Assembly (NCBI GenBank): GCA_964017235.1
Contig: OZ024928.1
Span: 155,830,881-155,894,880 of the forward strand
DNA: 64,000 bases
Reading direction: 5' to 3'
Source: Sabellastarte sp. h YS-2021
Lineage: Eukaryota; Annelida; Polychaeta; Sabellida; Sabellidae
This document shows positions 4,706-62,597 of the stretch, piece after piece. How positions within the stretch are numbered: position 1 is the first letter of the stretch; each line of letters begins with the position of its first letter. The position numbers were made by a program, and so were the translations under genes. The notes beneath the pieces were generated by a model that saw only the letters and a program-made list of their open reading frames with translations, ran no database searches and was not told the origin of the DNA.

Positions 4706-7193
4706 CTAGACCTACGCATCAGAGAACCGATGCAAATTTGTATCCACCGGAAAGACAACTCACCAGAGCCACTGAACCATCGTTTGACCTTGAAGGAGGG
4801 GCCAAAGGTCAAATCTGACATCAGAAGATTAGCAGCCCATGATATCCTGTGATATAAGTTGGTTTCATATTGCAAACCTCTAGGATCAATAATAAACGAG
4901 TTATAAGCACTTTAACGTTTGGCTGTCCTCGTTTGACCTTGAAGGAGGGCTCAAGCTCAAATCTGACCACATCAAAAGATTCCCAGCCCATTATTTCCTA
5001 TAAGTTGATTTCACATAGCAAACCTTTAGGACCAATAATAAGCAATTTATAAGCACTTTTAACTTTGGCTGTCCTCATTTGACATTGAAGGAGTTGTCCA
5101 AGGTCAAATCTGACCACATCAAAAGATTCCCAGCCCATGATTTCCTATAAGATGGTTTCATCTTGCAAACCTCTAGGACCAATAATAAGCAAGTTATAAG
5201 CACTTTTAAGTTTGGCTATCCTCGTATGACCTTGAAGGAGGGGTCGAAGGTAAGATCTGACCACATCAAAAGATCTCCAGCCCATGATTTCCTATAAGTT
5301 GGTTTCACATTGCAAACCTCTAGGACCAATAATAAGCGAGTTATAAGCACTTTTAACATTTTCTATCCACATTTGACCTTGAAGGAGGGGCCCAAGGTCA
5401 AATCTGAACACATTAAAAGATTCCCAGCCCATGATTTCCTATAGGTTGGTTTGCCATCCCAAACCTCTACGACCAATAATAAGTGAGTTATAAGCACGTT
5501 TAACCTTGGCTATCCTCATTTGGCCTTGAAAGAGGGGCCCAAGGTCAAATCCAACCACACCAGAAGATTACCAGCCCATGATTTCCTATAAGTTGGTTTC
5601 ACATTGCAAACCTCTAGGACCAATAATAAGCGAGTTATAAGCACTTTTAACATTGGCTATCCTCATTTGACCTTGAAGGAGGGGCCCAAGGTCAAATCTG
5701 AACACATTAAATGATTCCCAGCCCATGATTTCCCATAGGTTGGTTTGCCATCCCAAACCTCTAGGACCAATAATAAGTGAGTTATAAGCACTTTTAACCT
5801 TGGCTATCCTCATTTGACCTTGAAAGAGGGGCCCAAGGTCAAATCCAACCACACCAGAAGATTCCCAGCCCATGATTTCCTATAAGTTGGTTTCATCTTG
5901 CAAACCTCTAGGACCAATAATAAGCAAGTTATAAGCACTTTTAAGTTGGACTATCCTCGTATGACCTTGAAGGAGGGGTCCAAGGTCAAATCTGACCACA
6001 TCAAAAGACTCCCAGCCCATGATTTCCTATAAGTTGGTTTCACATTGCAAACCTCTAGGACCAATAATAAGCGAGTTATAAACACTTTTAAGTTTGGCTA
6101 TCCTTATTTGACCTTGAAGGATGGGTCCAAGGTCAAATCAGAGCACACCATAGATTCCCAGCCCATGATTTCCTATAGGTTGGTTTACCATCCAAAACCT
6201 CTAGGACCAATAATAAGCAAGTTATAAGCACTTTTAAATTTGGCTATCCTCTTTTGACCTTGAACGAGGGGCCCAAGGTCAAATCCGACCACACCAGAAG
6301 ATTCCCAGCCCATGATTTCCTATGTGTCGGTTTACCATCCCAAACCTCTAGGACCAATAATAAGCGAGTTATAAGCACTTTTAAGTTTGGCTATCCTTGT
6401 ATGGACCTTGAAGGAGGGGTCCAAGGTAAAATCTGACCACACCAAAAGATTCCCAGCCCATGATTTCCTATAGGTTGGTTTACCATCCCAAACCTCTACG
6501 ACCAATAATAAGCGAGTTATAAGCACTTTTAAGTTTGGCTATCATCGTTTGACCTTGAAGGAGGGGCCCAAGGTCAAATCCGAACACACCAGAAGATTCC
6601 CAGCCCAAGATTTCTTCTGTGTCGGTTTACCATCCCAAACCTCTAGGACCAAAAATAAGTGAGTTATAAGCACTTTTAAGTTTGGCTATCCTTGTTTAAC
6701 CTTGAAGGAGGGGTCCAATGTCAAATCTGACCACATCAGAAGCTTTGTAGCCCATGATTTCCTATAAGTTGGTTTCACATTGCCAACCTTTAGGACCAAT
6801 AATAAGGGAGATATAGGCACTTTTAAAGTCTGCTGTGTGGGTTACTTTGGCACTCCTTGGATGACCTTGAATTAAGAGTTTCTCAAGGTCAAATGTCTGC
6901 AAGGTTGTAGTGGAAATGTATATCTGTTATACATATCACATATGAAGAGATTCAAACTTCTACCTATGAGAAACAGCCAGTAGAAAAATGTAGATAAGTT
7001 TCAAAGAAATGCCTGTGGCGGCCATCTTGTTTTTCAGAATGAGGCTAATTTCAGTCCCAGAGAAGCCTACCCCCAATGAAGATATCCTGCAAATCTCTGG
7101 TGTAGTTTTCTTCTGAGAGCGTTAACCCGAAAATTTCTCTACCCGCGGCGGTGGCTGCGGCGTAGCGAACGCTAAACCAAAGTATCCACTGGA
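4706..7193 (-). mobile_element. Helitron-like non-autonomous element with internal satellite array
   Basis: Read on the minus strand the element starts A|TCCAGTGGATACTTTGG (position 7193) and ends GCGTAGGTCTAG|T (position 4706). This is the A|TC...CTRR|T signature of Helitrons. About 20 bases before the CTAG is a 6-bp hairpin, GATACA-AATT-TGCATC, with one mismatch. Both ends match the shorter element at 45026-45568, which shows the same signature. No Rep/helicase is present, so it is non-autonomous. The interior is about 14 tandem satellite units. Bivalve pearl-type Helitron-like elements with similar internal arrays are known, but I cannot confirm membership of that family. Confidence 0.7.
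4780..6880 (-). repeat. 148 bp tandem satellite (satB), about 14 units
   Basis: The motif ACCAATAATAAGCGAGTTAT recurs every 146-150 bp, with a second marker (TTGACCTTGAAGGAGG) in each unit. Units are similar but not identical. The same satellite appears in the opposite orientation at 37345-37925, once at 45340-45500, and diverged at 61720-62510. It is not coding: open frames inside it exist on either strand only because of the repeat. Confidence 0.9.
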
Positions 7194-20245: not shown

Positions 20246-20317
20246 TTATGTGGGTGTTCCACCACATGACTAAGCTCCCCGATTAAGGGTTTTTGGGAGT
20301 CGGTTTCAAATATTTGT

Positions 20318-20815
20318 TTAGTCCCAGACGTCCTGTAAGGGTCGGTAGTTGTCAGTTGTGGCCATGAGAGAAATCAAACATGTTTGATATTTCTCACGAC
20401 CCAAACCGATTCTCATTTCCCGCTGACAACAAAATGTCCAGTCCCAGGCTTCCTCAGGCCTCCTCAGACCCAAATTTACACAGTCCAATGTTGTCCCAGG
20501 CGTCCTGCGACCCTTAGTCCCAGGCCTCCGTAGCTTAGTCCCAGGAGGCCTGTTTGGTAGTCCCCGACTCATAACAGATCTTTGAAGTTTCATGCGTGTG
20601 AAAGTGAATCGGTTTCATTAGTCCCGGGAAGCCTCAGACTGTCTCAGGTGTCCTGGGACTAAGAAATCTGGGTCTGGGACTAAGCCCCGACAAAGAGAAG
20701 CCGACCCTAACCGATCCAAGCCGGCGTCCTCAGGCTGCCTGGAACAACACAAATTTAATCTGCGGTGGTCTGAGGATGCCCCAGGAGGCCTGGGACTAAG
20801 AACCGATTAAGAGCC
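20318..20815. repeat. Left subterminal GTCCCAGG motif array of the Harbinger element
   Basis: About ten copies, in both orientations, of TTAGTCCCAGG followed by (C/A)(G/C)(T/G)CCT-like bases lie here. A matching cluster sits at the other end (24790-25030). Arrays like this are usual binding regions for the transposase or its helper. Confidence 0.65.
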
Positions 20816-20868
20816 GACTGTTTTCCGCGCGTCGGAAATTAAAACGAGGCAATGAGGGGGTCTGAGAC

Positions 20869-20876
20869 TATATAAG
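20869..20876 (+). promoter_or_regulatory. TATA box of the Harbinger + strand gene
   Basis: TATATAAG lies in a locally GC-rich stretch (GGGGGTCTGAGAC...CGACCGCGC), about 175 bases before the first ATG at 21051 and 226 before the one at 21095. Confidence 0.55.
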
Positions 20877-21094
20877 CGACCGCGCACACATTCTCATTGT
20901 TACTGACTGGTTGGCTACTGAGAGACGTGTGTCTTTGTTTTGTAGGGTTTTCATTTTTTTAAATATCATATAATACTTGAGCTTAAGGCAAATTTTACAG
21001 TTAGGAGACACATTTTAGTTTTTTACTTTTTTTTTGCTATTGACTGGAGTAATGAGGAAAGAGAAAGGAGGGAAGATAGGAACAAAGAAGATGG

Positions 21095-21901
21095 ATGCGA
21101 GGCAAGAGGAGAGGGAGAAGGAAAGTGGAGGAAAGGATGGAGGAGAGGACAGAGGAGGGTACAGAGGAGGGTACACAAGAGACTGAGGAGCGATTGAAAC
21201 TTACTGAGGAAGCTTGCGAAGAAGAAGAGAGGTGTGAGGAGGATTCAGAGAGTCACTCGGCAGCCAAGAGAGCCAGGGTCTGTGCAACTTTCACTGACAG
21301 CCAAGAAACTGCAATTGTGGAGTTTGTGAAGGAGCATCCAGAGCTCTACGACAAGGAGCATGCACGTTTCCATGACAGACAGAAGAAGGAGGCTCTCTGG
21401 GCAGAAATCTCTGCAGAACTGAAGCTCCAGCCCTTTGATGTCAGAAGATGGTTCGAATCCCAGCGAACGCGTTATGGCAAGCTGTCAAAACTACAATCTG
21501 GCCAAGCCCCAAGGGAGATGACCAAGAGACAGTCCTGGGTTTACCAGCAGATGGGTTTCCTTAAGACCCACATCAGACGAAAGGGGGCCAGCAGAAGTTC
21601 AGGGTTCGAGGCCAGTCCAAACACCAGCAAGCAGGACGAATCTCGTGGATCTACTACTGATATGGAACACCTTGAGTCCAGTGTCCTCAGGGAGAGTAGG
21701 AGTCAACCTATGTTCACATCTACACCAGTTTCAACAGACTCCAAGATACTCGAGCACTTTGACCAGATGAGAACATTGATCTCAGGTTTCCTGCAGCAGA
21801 AGTCAGACAGGCAGCCCTTCTTTGACTACGTTGCATCAGAGGCTGAAAAGATGACCCAAGAGGAATTTGAGGACCTTAAGGGCAGAATTTTTAGAGATTA
21901 G
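21095..21901 (+). CDS. Harbinger MADF/Myb-like DNA-binding protein
   Basis: This 268-residue frame encodes the accessory DNA-binding protein of a PIF/Harbinger element, which partners the transposase and binds subterminal sites. After an acidic, Arg/Glu-rich start (about residues 1-60) comes a MADF-like domain (about 65-140): IVEFVKEHPELYDKEHARFH, KKEALWAEISAEL, DVRRWFESQRTRYGKL. A Ser/Thr-rich region and a helical C-terminal segment (EHFDQMRTLISGFLQ, DYVASEAEKMTQEEFE) follow. An ATG at 21051 in another frame soon meets a stop, so 21095 is taken, though a lost frame upstream is possible. The natural C-terminus probably continued in a neighbouring frame to a TAA at 22236, so a small frameshift near 21890 is likely. 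Confidence 0.75.
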   Translation: MRGKRRGRRKVEERMEERTEEGTEEGTQETEERLKLTEEACEEEERCEEDSESHSAAKRARVCATFTDSQETAIVEFVKEHPELYDKEHARFHDRQKKEALWAEISAELKLQPFDVRRWFESQRTRYGKLSKLQSGQAPREMTKRQSWVYQQMGFLKTHIRRKGASRSSGFEASPNTSKQDESRGSTTDMEHLESSVLRESRSQPMFTSTPVSTDSKILEHFDQMRTLISGFLQQKSDRQPFFDYVASEAEKMTQEEFEDLKGRIFRD

Positions 21902-22238
21902 AGATATTGAATGCATTAAAAGCAACCGTAGATGTCAAGCACTACCCAGAAGATCAGCCACTATTACCACGGAGTCCCAGGGGGTCGGGATACTGCCAAC
22001 AACCACTCAACAGGCGTCTACTTCCACCCAAGCAGCAGCTAGCAGCAGTTACGTCTACTACACACCCAGCCCACTTGGCATTGGCAACCCTCCATCAGTT
22101 CTAACAGTACAGGGCGAGGGCAATAGACACAACTTAAGTAGAATACTAAGCCAGCTACCAGATCTGACATCTACACAGATCATTGAGCAGCCTCAGCAGC
22201 CGCAACTCTTCACTATCACCACTACAGCACAGCCTTAA
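21902..22238 (+). pseudogene. Probable frameshifted C-terminal tail of the MADF protein
   Basis: Downstream of the MADF stop, another frame stays open to TAA at 22236-22238 and has protein-like composition (TTTQQASTSTQAAASSSYVY, TSTQIIEQPQQPQLFT). Gln/Ser/Thr-rich tails are common in such proteins. This TAA is only 54 bases from the histone-like hairpin at 22292, consistent with it being the original stop. Confidence 0.45.
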
Positions 22239-22291
22239 CAGCAGCAGCCTCCTCAGTAGCCATCCAGTCAGGGCGGGTCTTTGACCTGCCA

Positions 22292-22307
22292 GGCCCTTTT
22301 CAGGGCC
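22292..22307 (+). promoter_or_regulatory. Histone-mRNA-like 3' stem-loop after the MADF gene
   Basis: GGCCCTTTTCAGGGCC forms a perfect 6-bp stem with a UUUC loop and is directly followed by ACCCA. It fits the consensus GGYYYUHHUHARRRCC of replication-dependent histone mRNA 3' ends at every position. It starts 54 bases past the likely stop codon. Confidence 0.7.
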
Positions 22308-22599
22308 ACCCAAATATTCCAAAACAATTATTCAGCTGCAAGTTATTCCAATTCCCCTCCCAAAACATAACAGTTCAGTACAAATACTTATCAAAAAAAA
22401 AAAAAAAAAAAAGAGTCCAACACCTACACCACCCCAAACATGAAACAAATAACCCATGGTACCACACATAACCAAAAAAGGCCACATAGAAAAAAAATTA
22501 AAATAAATAAACTCCCAATATGGCCAATAATCAGTCCATTTTTAGCTTAAAATCCATGGGATTGGTTAAAATCTTTAATAAAAAAGTCCAACACTTACA

Positions 22600-22800
22600 T
22601 CATCCCTATAGTTAAAAGGCATTATCACATACTTACCAACACACAAACCCAATACCAAACCTAACCCCCAACTAACCAACACACAAACCAAATACCACAC
22701 TTAACCACCAACTAACAAACACACAAACCAAATACCAAACATAACCACCAACCAAGAAACAGACAAACCCAATAGCAAACAGAACCCAAACCAAAGAACT
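22600..22800 (+). repeat. Minisatellite of about 30 bp, left arm of an inverted pair
   Basis: Units resemble ACAAACC(A/C)AATACCAAAC followed by ATAACCACCAACYAA. The same unit in opposite orientation fills 23050-23280. Confidence 0.75.
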
Positions 22801-23049
22801 GACAAACTATTTTGCAAACATAACTCCCAATCACTGTAAAGAAAATCAGTTTGGTGGTTATATTTCCTAAATATTTGTGAAGTGGAGTAAAAGATTTTAA
22901 TTTTAAGATTTCCAGGAAAACATTTCTGTTTCAAATATTTTTCCCCCAAAAAAAACAAATGTAAGTAAAATTAGGATGTAGCTTTCAAAATATATACAAT
23001 ATTTATTCCATTTAGGAAGTTATGTTTGGCTTTGTGTGTTTCTTTTGAG

Positions 23050-23280
23050 AATTATGTTTAGCACTGGGTTTGTCTGTTTGTTAGTTGGGTGACTTCTGTA
23101 AGGCATTTATTTCTGTCTGTTTGTTGGGTGGGTGACTTATGTTGGGCATTGGGTTTGTCTGTTTGTTGGTTGCGTGACTTCTGTCGGGCATTGGGTTTGT
23201 CTGTTTGTTGGGTGGGTGAATTATGTTGGGCATTGGGTTTGTCTGTTTGTTGGTTGCGTGACTTTTGTTTGGTAATGTTT
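23050..23280 (-). repeat. Minisatellite of about 30 bp, right arm of an inverted pair
   Basis: GGGTTTGTCTGTTTGTTGG alternates with GTGACTTCTGTCGGGCATT or GTGACTTATGTTGGGCATT. It is open in several frames but is repeat, not gene. Confidence 0.85.
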
Positions 23281-23330
23281 GGGTTATTTGGAACAAGCAT
23301 AGCTGATTAATTGTTTTTGGAATATTTGGT

Positions 23331-23369
23331 AGTCCTGAAAAGGACTGGTTATTAGTCCTGAAAAGGACT
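23331..23369 (-). promoter_or_regulatory. Two tandem histone-like stem-loops after the transposase gene
   Basis: On the minus strand AGTCCTTTTCAGGACT occurs twice, at 23369-23354 and 23346-23331, 18 and 41 bases after the transposase stop. Each is a perfect 6-bp stem with the UUUC loop and a G at stem position two. The second is followed by ACCAAATATTCCAAAA, nearly the same bases that follow the + strand hairpin. Only the outermost stem pair departs from the histone consensus. Confidence 0.65.
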
Positions 23370-23386
23370 GGTTACTGCAGCAGCAG

Positions 23387-24672
23387 TTATATTCTGCCAT
23401 CTTGCCAGGCCACTACTCCCTCATTATTGAAGTAGTCCTTGAGGTAATCCCTCTGTCTTTTGGCTTCTCTAGCAGGGTTTCTGTCTGGACCACCACCAGC
23501 AGCACCACCAATCAGTCGACAGTCACCAGGCACATCATCATCTTCATCATCTCCAGGCTCTTGACCACCATGTTGACCTTGATACTGGCTTCTCAGTATG
23601 TTGTGCAGAACCACACAGGTCATGACCACATCCCTGACTGTTTCTGGGGGTAATTCAATAGTAGTCAACATCACTCTGAATCTTGAGACCAGGATGCCAA
23701 AAGCACTCTCAACAACTCTCCTGCCCCTTGATATTCTGTAGTTGGCAATCCTTTCCTCTCTGGTTAACATCCTTCTGCCATAGGGTTTCATGAGCCAGGT
23801 CTTCAGGGCAAAGGCATCATCTGCCAGAATGAAGTAGGGACATCTCTACCACCCTGGGGTATAGGAGCTGGGTCAGGGAAGCCTATCCTGCCATCCTCAA
23901 TCCTCCTCTTCAGCTGACAGGCATTAAATATCTGGGCATCTGAGCAAGATCCAGCTGTACCAGCATCCACCCATCTGAATTTGTACTGCCCATCTACCAA
24001 GGCCAACATTACTATGGAAAAGAACCCCTTGTAGTTGTGGTACAGGGCTCCAGAGTTCTTGGGTTTCTTCAGGGCCACATGCTTGCCATCAAGTGCATGT
24101 GGAACATTCCACCTGATCCTGAATTCCCTTTCCAGTTCTTTCCACTCATCTGGAGTAGTAGGACATCTGAGGTACTCTCTGGTGAACTCATCCTGGATGG
24201 CCCTGCAGATCTCTGGTAGAAACTTGGTAATGGTGGATCAGACAACCCTGAACTGACAGGATAATGATGTGTAGGACTCTCCAGTGGCCAGATATCTGAT
24301 GGTGAGGGTTAACTTTTCCCCAACACTGATTGGAGCTCTGTAGTTGGTCGCCTGCCTGGCTAGACTTGGTTCCAGTCTGGTCTTTATCATTTCAAAGAAT
24401 TCTGGGGTCATCCTCATGTAGTTGGTGAATCCTGGAATGTCTGTGGCATACAGTTCAGCCATAATGTTGTGGTAGGCCACCCTCTCCTCTCTCTGTAGTA
24501 GCCATGGCCTGACCCACATGTTGTACCTTCTTCTACTTCTCTGTATGGCTGGTGGTGGAGGTGCTGCTTGTGGTGGTTGCTGTGGTCGACATAGAAATAG
24601 CAAATACATCATTATATGTAACTGAATAAAAACTAAAAAAGCCCTAAAGTTGTCGCTGAAGCTGTCTTCCAT
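23387..24672 (-). pseudogene. Harbinger DDE transposase (one stop, one frameshift)
   Basis: On the minus strand this is a DDE_Tnp_4-type transposase, cutting and joining DNA ends at TTA/TAA targets. The N-terminal part has MRMTPEFFEMIKTRLEPSLA and SVGEKLTLTIRYLATGESYT. Catalytic landmarks are ALDGKHVALK (first Asp), WVDAGTAGSCSDAQIF (second Asp) and [16 protein letters not shown] (Glu). An in-frame TGA at 24240-24238 sits where an Arg is expected before STITKFLPEI, consistent with CGA to TGA. A one-base loss near 23830 shifts the frame just before [10 protein letters not shown]. The frame ends at TAA 23389-23387. The ATG at 24672 follows a TATA-like run by about 60 bases. Confidence 0.85.
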
Positions 24673-24730
24673 TAAAAGGTGGCATCCTGCTGTGTTCCTA
24701 TAAAAGTAATGATAATTAGATCGCGGAATT

Positions 24731-24742
24731 TATATATATATA
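24731..24742 (-). promoter_or_regulatory. TATA-like run upstream of the transposase
   Basis: TATATATATATA between GC-containing flanks, about 60 bases before the transposase ATG on the minus strand. It may be a TATA box or only an AT run. Confidence 0.35.
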
Positions 24743-24789
24743 CCCAGAAAATCCAGCTTTTCTGCAAAACAAGAATCGGCCACATTGGT

Positions 24790-25030
24790 CTGGGGAAGAC
24801 TGAGGAGGCCTTGAGGACACCTGAGGAAGCCGGGACTTAATCGGGGCTTAGTCCCAGGAGGCCTGAGGCGTCCTGGGACCCAGTCGGTATGTGTACGACA
24901 AGATCGTGGTTGAAACTGACCAGAAAACTGGCTTAATCGGTTCTTAGTCGCAGAACAGTCGGGGACTGTCTGGGGCCACCTGGGGCCTCCTCAGGCTTCC
25001 TGAGGCCGATCTGTACTTAATCCCAGGCTT
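24790..25030. repeat. Right subterminal GTCCCAGG motif array of the Harbinger element
   Basis: Repeated CCTGAGG, TTAGTCCCAGGAGGCCTG and CGTCCTGGGAC motifs in both orientations mirror the left array. Confidence 0.6.
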
Positions 25031-25273
25031 TGATACCGGTTCAGTATTCCTGCCCATTTTACCATTTTCTTCACCGACTGTCCACGATTAAGGGTCGCCG
25101 ACAGGATTGGGCCTTAGTCCTTTGGTGGAACAGGGGTATTAGTTTTTATATTGCAATATTAATTCAAAGGTAACCAAAAATCATTCCTCATAAATTTCTT
25201 TATTTTTTTTCATTAAATTTTCTGAAAAAAAATAATGCAGTAAACTATCTTGTTTTTTAATTTTTTTCTTCAG

Positions 25274-25431
25274 GAAATAAAGAAATTTTATGCAGATGTG
25301 TACACATCTCGGTATGGAGCGATATCAGACACTACTATTACCATCTTATGGTCTTTTACCACTGCTGTGTTTATACCCGGTGGGATGATAGGTGCTTTTC
25401 TGGGAGGTTTACTGGCAGACAAAATAGGAAG
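25274..25431 (+). CDS. SLC2A: SLC2 exon c: first loop and helix 2
   Basis: EIKKFYADVYTSRYGAISDT leads into helix 2 (ILWSFTTAVFIPGGMIGAFL) and LADKIGR, the first GRR/K loop. The outer loop is short and has no N-x-S/T glycosylation site. Acceptor TTTTTTCTTCAG, donor AG|gtactg, ending in phase 2. Confidence 0.93.
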
Positions 25432-25687
25432 GTACTGTATTTTTCTAGCAAAGCATTATGGCTAAATAGGTGTCTATTTGAAATTACAATATGGTACAAA
25501 AATTGTAAGTGATTGTGTTGCTGTAGAATTCTAATTGGAACAATGTGTCAGTTTAAAACTGGATAATTTACCAGAAGATTATAGTCTTGATGTTCAGTGT
25601 GCTTGGTGTGTGGCTCTGCTATAGTGTCTTCAACTATTCTTATTGGTTGGTTCGTTCACTTCTGTGAGGTGGTTATAATAGGTCTTA

Positions 25688-37345: not shown

Positions 37346-37925
37346 CTACTTTGCTTATAACTCACTTATTATTGGTCCTAGAGGTTTGGAATGGTAAACA
37401 GACATATAGGAAATCATGGGCTGGGAATCTGTTGATGTGGTCCGATTTGACCTTGGACCTCTTCTTCAAGGTCAAACGAGGATAGCCAAACTTAAAAGTG
37501 CTTATAACTCGCTTATTATTGGTCTTAGAGGTTTGGGATGGTAAAACAACATATAGGAAATCATGGGCTGGGATTCTTTTGGTGTGGTCAGATTTGACCT
37601 TGGACCCCTCCTTCAAGGTCAGTTGAGGATAGCCAAACTTAAAATTGCTTATAAGTCGCTTGTTATTGGTCCTACAGGTTTGGGATGGTAAACCAACCTA
37701 CAGGAAATCATGGGCTGGGAATCATTTGGTGTGGTCGGATTTGACCTTGGACCCCTCCTTCAAGGTCAAACAAAGATAGCAAAACTTAAAAGTGCCTATA
37801 AATCGCTTATTATTGGTTCTAGAGGTTTGGGATGGTAAACCATCCTATAGGAAATCATGGGCTGGGAATCTTTTGGTGTGGTTGGATTTGACCGTGGACC
37901 CGTTCTTCAAGGTCATACGAGGATA
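37345..37925 (+). repeat. satB block (4 units of 148 bp) embedded in satA
   Basis: CTTATAACTC(A/G)CTTATTATTGG marks each unit at about 37353, 37500, 37648 and 37796. Orientation is opposite to the 4780-6880 array. Both edges of the block are satA sequence. Confidence 0.88.
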
Positions 37926-61278: not shown

Positions 61279-62597
61279 ATTTACAACATTTGGTAAAATA
61301 TGTTGTTCAGCTTCGTTCTCCATGCCTACAAGGTGGTAACTTTTTCTGTCTCAATAGCTACGTGAGTAATAGCTATATTCAGTTTTTAACCATGACCAAA
61401 ATTAGTAAATGATAGTTTTCTTCATAACTGTTAGAGTTACACTAATTTTGTCAAATATGTTGTTCAGCTACTTTTTGATGCACAGTGTCATGGCAAATTT
61501 TCAGAGCTGTAGGTCCATAGCTAACTGAGTAATAGCTACTTTGACAGTTCACTATTGAGTAAATCACTTACAGCTGGAAATTTGTTGCACCTATCCTTAC
61601 CAAGGTTTCAAGATATCTTCGCTGCTATGAAATCTTGCCTGGCTAACATTTGGTCCAGTTTGTTCAATTTGGTTGGTTGCTATGGCAATGAATTTGAAAA
61701 TCTGAGGTGACCAAACGTAAAGGAGCCTATATCTCCCTTATTATTGGTCGTAGAAGTTTTGGATGTGAAGACAACTTATAGGAAGTCATGTGCCCCGAAT
61801 CTTTTGCTGGTTTCAGATTTGACCTTGGACCCTTTCTTCAAGGTCAAATGTGGTTCTTCATACCTATAATGGCCTATATCTCCCTTGTTATTGCTCATAG
61901 AGGTTTTGGATATGAAGACAACCTATAGGAAATCATGTGCCCCAAAATTTTTGGTGGGGTGAGATTTGACCTTAGATCCCTCCTTCAAGGTCAAATGTGG
62001 TCCTTGATACCTATAATGGCCTATATCTCCCTTACTATTACCCATGGAGGTTTTGGATGTGAAGACAACTTATAGGAAATTATGTGCCTTGAATCTTTTG
62101 GTGATGTCAGATTTGACCTTGGAGCCCTCCTTGAAGGACGAATGTGGTCCTTGATACCTATAATGGCGTATATTTCCCTTATTATTGGTCGTAGAGGTTT
62201 GGATGTGAAGACGAATTTTTGGAAATCATGTGTCCCAAATTTTTGGGTTGGTTCAGATTTGACCTTTGACCCCTCCTTTAAGATTGAATGTGGTCCTTGA
62301 TACTTATAATGACCTATATCTCCCTTATTATTGGTCGCACCTTATAATTTGGCATAGAGGTTTGGGATGTCAAGACAACTTACAGGAAACCATGTGTCCC
62401 AATTCTTGTGGTGGGGTCAGATTTGAGCTTTGACCCCTCCTTGGAAGTTGCATTTAGTCCCTGATATCTATAGTGGCCTGTGTCTCACTTATAATAGGTC
62501 ATAGCTTTTTTTTTTTTTTTTTTAACATAATACTCTGTATGTCACGCTTCAACGATGTCCCATCTGGGGATACACTGCGTCGAGACGCAATATCTAG
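61279..62597 (+). mobile_element. Helitron-like 3' part with satA and satB units
   Basis: Decayed satA monomers (61290-61590) are followed by about six diverged satB units (61720-62510; CTATATCTCCCTTATTATTG every 147 bp or so). The 3' end reads TGCGTC-GA-GACGCA-ATAT-CTAG|T, a perfect hairpin directly before the CTAG|T terminus at 62597. The 5' end is not seen; the DIRS element ends right where the satellite begins. Confidence 0.6.

Follow-up and report, generated by a model that had tools for sequence, protein, structure and literature searches.

Do both genes of a DNA transposon end in the 3' stem-loops of replication-dependent histone mRNAs, and are such ends likely to be processed as those of histone mRNAs are? 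The question was raised by a sequence-only reading of the 64-kb stretch of DNA analysed here (the window), which described a Harbinger transposon with histone-type hairpins behind both of its genes. We know of no earlier transposon reported to link its mRNA to DNA replication through the processing of 3' ends. The tests that could be run mostly favoured that interpretation. The signal is found after both genes, it matches the ends of the host's histone genes, it is kept with compensated stems in diverged families, and the host has an SLBP gene. Our best explanation, which we consider likely to be correct, is that one clade of PIF/Harbinger elements ends its genes with a complete replication-dependent histone 3'-end signal, for which processing by SLBP and U7 is predicted.

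The transposon and its two genes

The source assembly comprises 1.79 Gb in 647 contigs, with eukaryotic content. The element (Table 1) has the hallmarks of the PIF/Harbinger superfamily: a 3-bp TWA duplication with terminal inverted repeats (TIRs), a DDE_Tnp_4 transposase, and a second gene of the MADF/Myb/SANT type. It resembles Harbinger3_DR and Ping/Pong in its TTA duplication, its TIRs and its pair of MADF/Myb-like and DDE_Tnp_4 genes; it differs in its histone-type 3' ends, which we have not found described for PIF/Harbinger transposons. Five of the outermost six TIR bases differ between the left and right ends, and similarity to other copies ends at element base 4886. Scans of viral contigs for relatives found none. 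Just to the right of the element lies a sugar-transporter exon (25274-25432, PF00083 above cut-off).

The sequence-only reading spoke of both genes of a Harbinger transposon, and MADF and DDE_Tnp_4 genes were indeed found, but both are damaged in the window copy. The MADF gene is open to 21901, with a frame change near 21885-21900, after which the C-terminal frame reaches a stop at 22236-22238. The transposase gene has a premature stop near 24238 and a frame change near 23800, and its own stop lies at 23387-23389; the middle piece scores 23.6 bits with PF13359, just under the cut-off of 24.8. Two other copies of the family that belong to the same clade, L130 and L131, have open transposase frames of 437 and 442 aa (PF13359 116.5 and 118.9 bits). 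Frames uninterrupted over this length are compatible with an intronless, histone-type transposase gene. The MADF and transposase genes converge on an intergenic stretch of about 1 kb. Read along the sense strand of either gene, the palindrome within this stretch is rich in A and C.

Table 1. Coordinates of the transposon, its genes and its gene ends in the window
Feature	Position	Strand	Evidence or remark
Whole PIF/Harbinger-type element, 4890 bp	20249..25138	.	target-site duplication and termini, inverted repeat
TTA target-site duplication	20246-20248 and 25139-25141		flanks the element
Left terminal inverted repeat	20249..20274	+	19 of 26 bases identical to the right one
Right terminal inverted repeat	25113..25138	-	pairs with the left one
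MADF (Myb/SANT-like) gene	21095..22238	+	PF10545 E 5.5e-13, 49.5 bits
DDE_Tnp_4 transposase gene	23387..24672	-	C-terminal piece scores 39.9 bits with PF13359
Degenerate palindrome (repeats of 40-42 bp) that separates the converging 3' ends	22631..23269	.	
Histone-type stem-loop past the MADF gene, GGCCCT TTTC AGGGCC = GGCCCTTTTCAGGGCC	22292-22307	+	RF00032 36.2 bits; R1 58.2 bits
ACCC and HDE-like downstream block of the MADF gene	22308..22337	+	common to host histone genes
First of two tandem stem-loops past the transposase gene, AGTCCTTTTCAGGACT, no ACC after it	23354-23369	-	
Second transposase stem-loop, AGTCCT TTTC AGGACT (AGTCCTTTTCAGGACT), followed by ACC	23331-23346	-	RF00032 31.0 bits; R1 56.1 bits
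ACC and HDE-like downstream block of the transposase gene	23301..23330	-	histone-end comparison, R1

Stem-loops and downstream blocks at the gene ends

The three hairpins lie where they had been described, and each consists of a fully paired 6-bp stem closed by the loop TTTC. By count, 53 bases separate the stop of the MADF frame from the (+) hairpin, and 17 and 40 bases separate the transposase stop from the two (-) hairpins. The (+) hairpin had been said to fit the histone consensus, and it is the sole zero-mismatch match to that consensus in the window. Judged as SLBP-type stems and loops, the MADF end agrees with the full consensus, and the transposase ends have A-U for G-C at pair 1. The stems of the two gene ends differ at pairs 1 and 3, on both sides each time. 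The downstream block reported as common to the two ends proved to be a 43-nt inverted repeat with 79% complementarity.

With the Rfam model Histone3 (RF00032), the only matches in the 64 kb at E<=10 are these two gene ends; the one at 22287-22332 (+) scores above the cut-off of 34 and the one at 23306-23351 (-) below it (Table 1). Stem-only matches with two mismatches number 22 in the window, against 26.2 expected by shuffling. Because relaxed stem matches are no commoner than chance, the evidence must rest on the full signal. Motifs of the polyadenylation type also lie downstream of both stops in the window copy, with AATAAA at 264-339 nt past the MADF stop and 276-380 nt past the transposase stop, and ATTAAA at 259 and 486 nt past the stops; polyadenylation of this copy is therefore possible.

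Two tandem histone-type hairpins end the transposase gene in the window (23331-23369) and in L001-L008, L130, L131 and L010-L013, and L102 has a single one. Within the window's clade, the ACC and the downstream block follow only the second hairpin of the tandem.

Match to the histone gene ends of the host

The comparison with the host relied on a covariance model, R1, whose training set consisted of seven ends of this genome's histone genes and nothing else (H1, two of H2A, H2B, H3 and two of H4). R1 has two strong matches in the 64-kb window, and these are the two transposon gene ends (E-values, which are rough, of 5.7e-12 and 1.9e-11; next best in the window 1.7). It also matches all 36 transposon loci supplied to it, with 52 matches at E<=0.1, 28 of the loci having been chosen by RF00032 and eight, among them L001, the window copy, by DNA similarity spanning the hairpins.

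The downstream block had been proposed for comparison with the 3' regions of the host's histone genes, and it matches them by alignment, by R1 and by identity over 51 nt. The downstream element of the host's histone genes is present at the transposon ends, with the block TTCCAAAAACAATTA. The core common to both kinds of end, ...TTYCAARAAC..., starts about 12 nt past the stem. In known systems U7 binds at about that distance past the stem. Loop, ACC and HDE-like block agree between transposon and histone ends, and the stems mostly differ. Over the 51 nt of stem-loop and HDE, 14 transposon MADF ends and six histone ends (84 pairs) have an identity of 0.77, against 0.41-0.45 in the flanks and 0.42-0.44 after shuffling, and the transposon ends among themselves (91 pairs) have 0.83, against 0.48-0.57 in the flanks; the contrast with the flanks is inflated, because all but one of the 14 transposon ends came from RF00032 matches, which select for this stretch.

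The gene ends of the transposon are like those of replication-dependent histone mRNAs (RF00032; SLBP, U7 snRNP, HDE) in the TTTC/TTTA loop, in the ACC context, in a downstream block common to host H1, H2A, H2B, H3 and H4, and in their place 17-53 nt past the stop (window). They are unlike them in being transposon-borne and attached to non-histone genes, in the two tandem stem-loops at the transposase gene, and in the stems, which are GGCCCT and AGTCCT as against the common host histone stem GGCTCT. Stem-loops in the histone mRNAs of a bivalve are described in PMC6210712.

Conservation across copies and clades

The further check envisaged in the sequence-only reading, that of related copies, gave a favourable result: the hairpins are kept in other copies and in diverged families. 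Changes in the stem are compensated, and none of the 17 hairpins compared, 11 of them distinct, has an unpaired stem position. All stem cells are paired, 66 of 66 over the distinct hairpins and 204 of 204 in a broader count, and changes on both sides occur at pairs 1, 3 and 4 (three of six) and at none of pairs 2, 5 and 6. The observed pairing, double-change cells and covariation score are reached in 0 of 500 shuffles, for a covariation that stems from few evolutionary events. The number of double-changed pairs is not above shuffles (149/500 for the 11 distinct hairpins, 378/500 for the 204-cell count), nor is the number of pair types (458/500 and 493/500, respectively).

The nearest copies, L002-L008, keep both transposase hairpins in seven of seven cases and the MADF hairpin in six of seven; for L003, no MADF end was found within the 3.5 kb examined. 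Among ten related MADF ends, the stop and the hairpin are 32 nt apart in four (L004, L006, L008 and L110) and 45 and 50 nt apart in two, and the remaining four have a longest frame that ends sooner (110-190 nt). The signal also follows the MADF frame in diverged families, the MADF stretches of L010-L018 being 37-60% identical; L009 and L017 gave no match at all. At the transposase end, the L010 clade has two hairpins with a weaker downstream block (R1, 18.9-24.7 bits).

A sample that ignored the hairpins consisted of 20 DDE_Tnp_4 elements hand-picked from 150 scored, in which the 400 nt past the domain were searched with R1. Two of the 20 match, L130 and L131, which both belong to the window's clade (tail WQDGRI) and keep both tandem hairpins. 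The other 18, with other tails and from other lineages, have no R1 match within 400 nt past the domain, and AWTAAA is present in 14 of them. L009 stands for a sister clade (45.9% identical over the best stretch). Its transposase ends, chosen by protein (L138-L143) and read over 300 nt, have the signal in none of six and AWTAAA in five of six. Its MADF end was sought in two of these six elements and reached in one, L145, where the signal is present (36.6 bits, E 1.5e-8), with a degenerate loop; the other element is counted neither for nor against. The claim for both genes thus holds for the window's clade, holds in a weaker form for the L010 clade, and fails for the transposase ends of the sister clade (0/6).

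Because the sister-clade transposase ends are without the signal and the L145 MADF end has it, the signal appears to be older, or under more constraint, on the MADF gene. A single element of this clade may combine two types of mRNA end, since transposase hairpins are absent and AWTAAA lies nearby in five of the six. Judged from these sequences, histone-type ends are a clade-specific trait.

Genome-wide occurrence of the signal

Searched over the whole genome, RF00032 yields at least 75 scored matches from 382297 first-look candidates. Histone genes account for 37 of the 75. Of these, 32 belong to a tandem array of H1 genes, where tblastn with histone sequences gave an H1 match for the 19 that were read and the 1932-bp period assigned the other 13; the remaining five are on C2, where they adjoin H3, H2A and H4. 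The H1 array of 1932-bp units (G000 C4:31445721-31509289; L020-L038) is separate from the core histone cluster (C2, 27.735-27.743 Mb). Of the remaining 38 matches, 28 were read: 24 have a same-strand MADF-protein match upstream, and four were assigned by eye, L009 and L017 as MADF-like tails and L096 and L108 as members of the L016 family. Two of the other ten converge with sister-clade transposases, at distances of 1225 and 537 bp.

The strict pattern of stem-loop and ACC, RGYYYTTTTMARRRCYACC, occurs at 6477 sites genome-wide, against four for the reversed pattern. Pairing is perfect at all seven sites whose sequence was read, and an unpaired A-C at pair 1 is found at only 131 of the 6477 (2.0%). 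The common histone stem GGCTCT-AGAGCC is present at 39 sites, 38 of them at histone clusters (six on C2 at 27.647 and 27.735-27.741 Mb, 32 in the C4 H1 array) and one elsewhere; the other 6438 are probably transposon ends, to judge by the part that was read. Among the first 100 sites listed, 52 form 26 pairs less than 2 kb apart, with a median spacing of 1034 bp; the spacing in the window is 1039 bp.

Host factors for histone 3'-end processing

Two places on C6, 11 kb apart, match the SLBP domain PF15247 with 56.8 and 35.9 bits (cut-off 27), and are read as two exons of the host SLBP gene. For U7 snRNA, RF00066 gave 20 matches, none above cut-off. Of the ten matches that were read, six (L039-L044) were rejected as U7 because they belong to a satellite with a 147-bp unit, and the other four are weak and of little length. 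The same satellite is abundant in the window (4783-6826, 37352-37925 and 61725-62337); its weak U7 match of 25-31 bits is a false positive that annotators should bear in mind. Searches for an HDE-complementary stretch with a U7-type Sm site returned 109 sites against 59 in the control with one pattern, and 98 against 317, hence no enrichment, with another. The flanks of 36 candidates (31 and 5) were read, and none has a convincing hairpin after it; L133 is the best by sequence, and L137 scores weakly with RF00066 (16.5 bits, E 0.79). As no U7 snRNA was identified in these searches, we infer the pairing of the HDE with U7 from the likeness of the block to that of the host's histone genes.

Alternative explanations

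Could an AT-rich block beside random hairpins, or a repeat artefact, have produced this picture by chance? The relaxed stem matches, as common in shuffled sequence as in the window, would agree with this, but the R1 E-values of 6e-12 and 2e-11 at the two ends and the 6477 sites against 4 refute it, and the 26 pairs among the first 100 listed sites are convergent in 26 of 26 cases. We regard chance as having practically no probability, and the argument against it in the sequence-only reading is borne out for the full signal. It is very unlikely, too, that the hairpins serve converging genes as terminators at the DNA level or as generic terminators in the RNA, through a cruciform or as insulation against antisense or double-stranded RNA, and not as SLBP/U7 sites. 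Such a role is suggested by convergent ends no more than about 1 kb apart with a degenerate palindrome between them, but it has no need for a TTTC/TTTA loop, a second G-C pair, an ACC or the host's HDE block, and the scores of the histone-trained R1 depend on loop, second pair, ACC and HDE block.

The signal might instead be captured host DNA, a histone 3' end picked up by chance and carried as a passenger, with the mRNAs polyadenylated downstream. Its close likeness to host histone ends, the AATAAA motifs downstream in the window copy, and a sister-clade transposase gene that manages without it all speak for capture. A passenger would, however, decay between families, whereas here the signal follows the MADF frame even in diverged families and the stem changes are compensated. 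The similarity is limited to the stem-loop and the HDE (in ends mostly found via RF00032), and the transposon stems depart from the common histone stem even though the ends agree in loop, ACC and HDE. Capture as a passenger is very unlikely.

A proposed model for replication-coupled expression

If the complete histone-type signal works in the transposon as it does in histone genes, SLBP would bind the transposon stem-loop and U7 snRNP would pair with the downstream block. Cleavage a few bases past the stem would then give MADF and transposase mRNAs without poly(A), with stability and translation largely confined to S phase. Jumps would accordingly take place in S phase, in germline divisions and early cleavage, where an element that leaves replicated DNA for a site not yet replicated, or whose donor site is repaired from the sister, could raise its copy number. 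A second benefit, compatible with the first, may be short, well-defined 3' ends for genes that converge within about 1 kb. Both PIF/Harbinger proteins are needed for transposition, according to PMC2836001 and PMC9710019; timing of the MADF protein alone could therefore gate transposition, which fits the sister clade.

We lean towards the broader view that this lineage expresses its genes through the host's replication-coupled histone mRNA pathway, with a transposase supply locked to S phase and with SLBP and U7 shared, possibly contested, since the 6438 pattern sites outnumber the 39 common-stem ends by more than 100:1. Because its genes end with a histone mRNA signal that matches the host's histone genes, this transposon family may have tied its activity to DNA replication. 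No transposon with histone-type ends was among the matches listed in a search of the open-access literature, with most subscription papers and all preprints outside its scope, and a term search for 'stem-loop' had no hit in PMC9179366 and PMC9710019 (PIF/Harbinger comparison).

Processed as predicted, the element would be the first such transposon known to us. Mobile, non-histone genes carry the whole signal, apparently in thousands of copies and matched to the host's version. Such a system makes it possible to test the long-standing idea that jumping during S phase lets cut-and-paste elements multiply, and the copies supply naturally occurring stem and HDE variants with which the specificity of SLBP and U7 can be studied. 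One histone gene stands apart from the common type: a lone H2A gene, L055 (G000 C6, about 30597805-30597820), has the stem GGTCCT-AGGACC, midway between the stem common to histone genes and that of the transposase type, and is a possible source of the captured signal.
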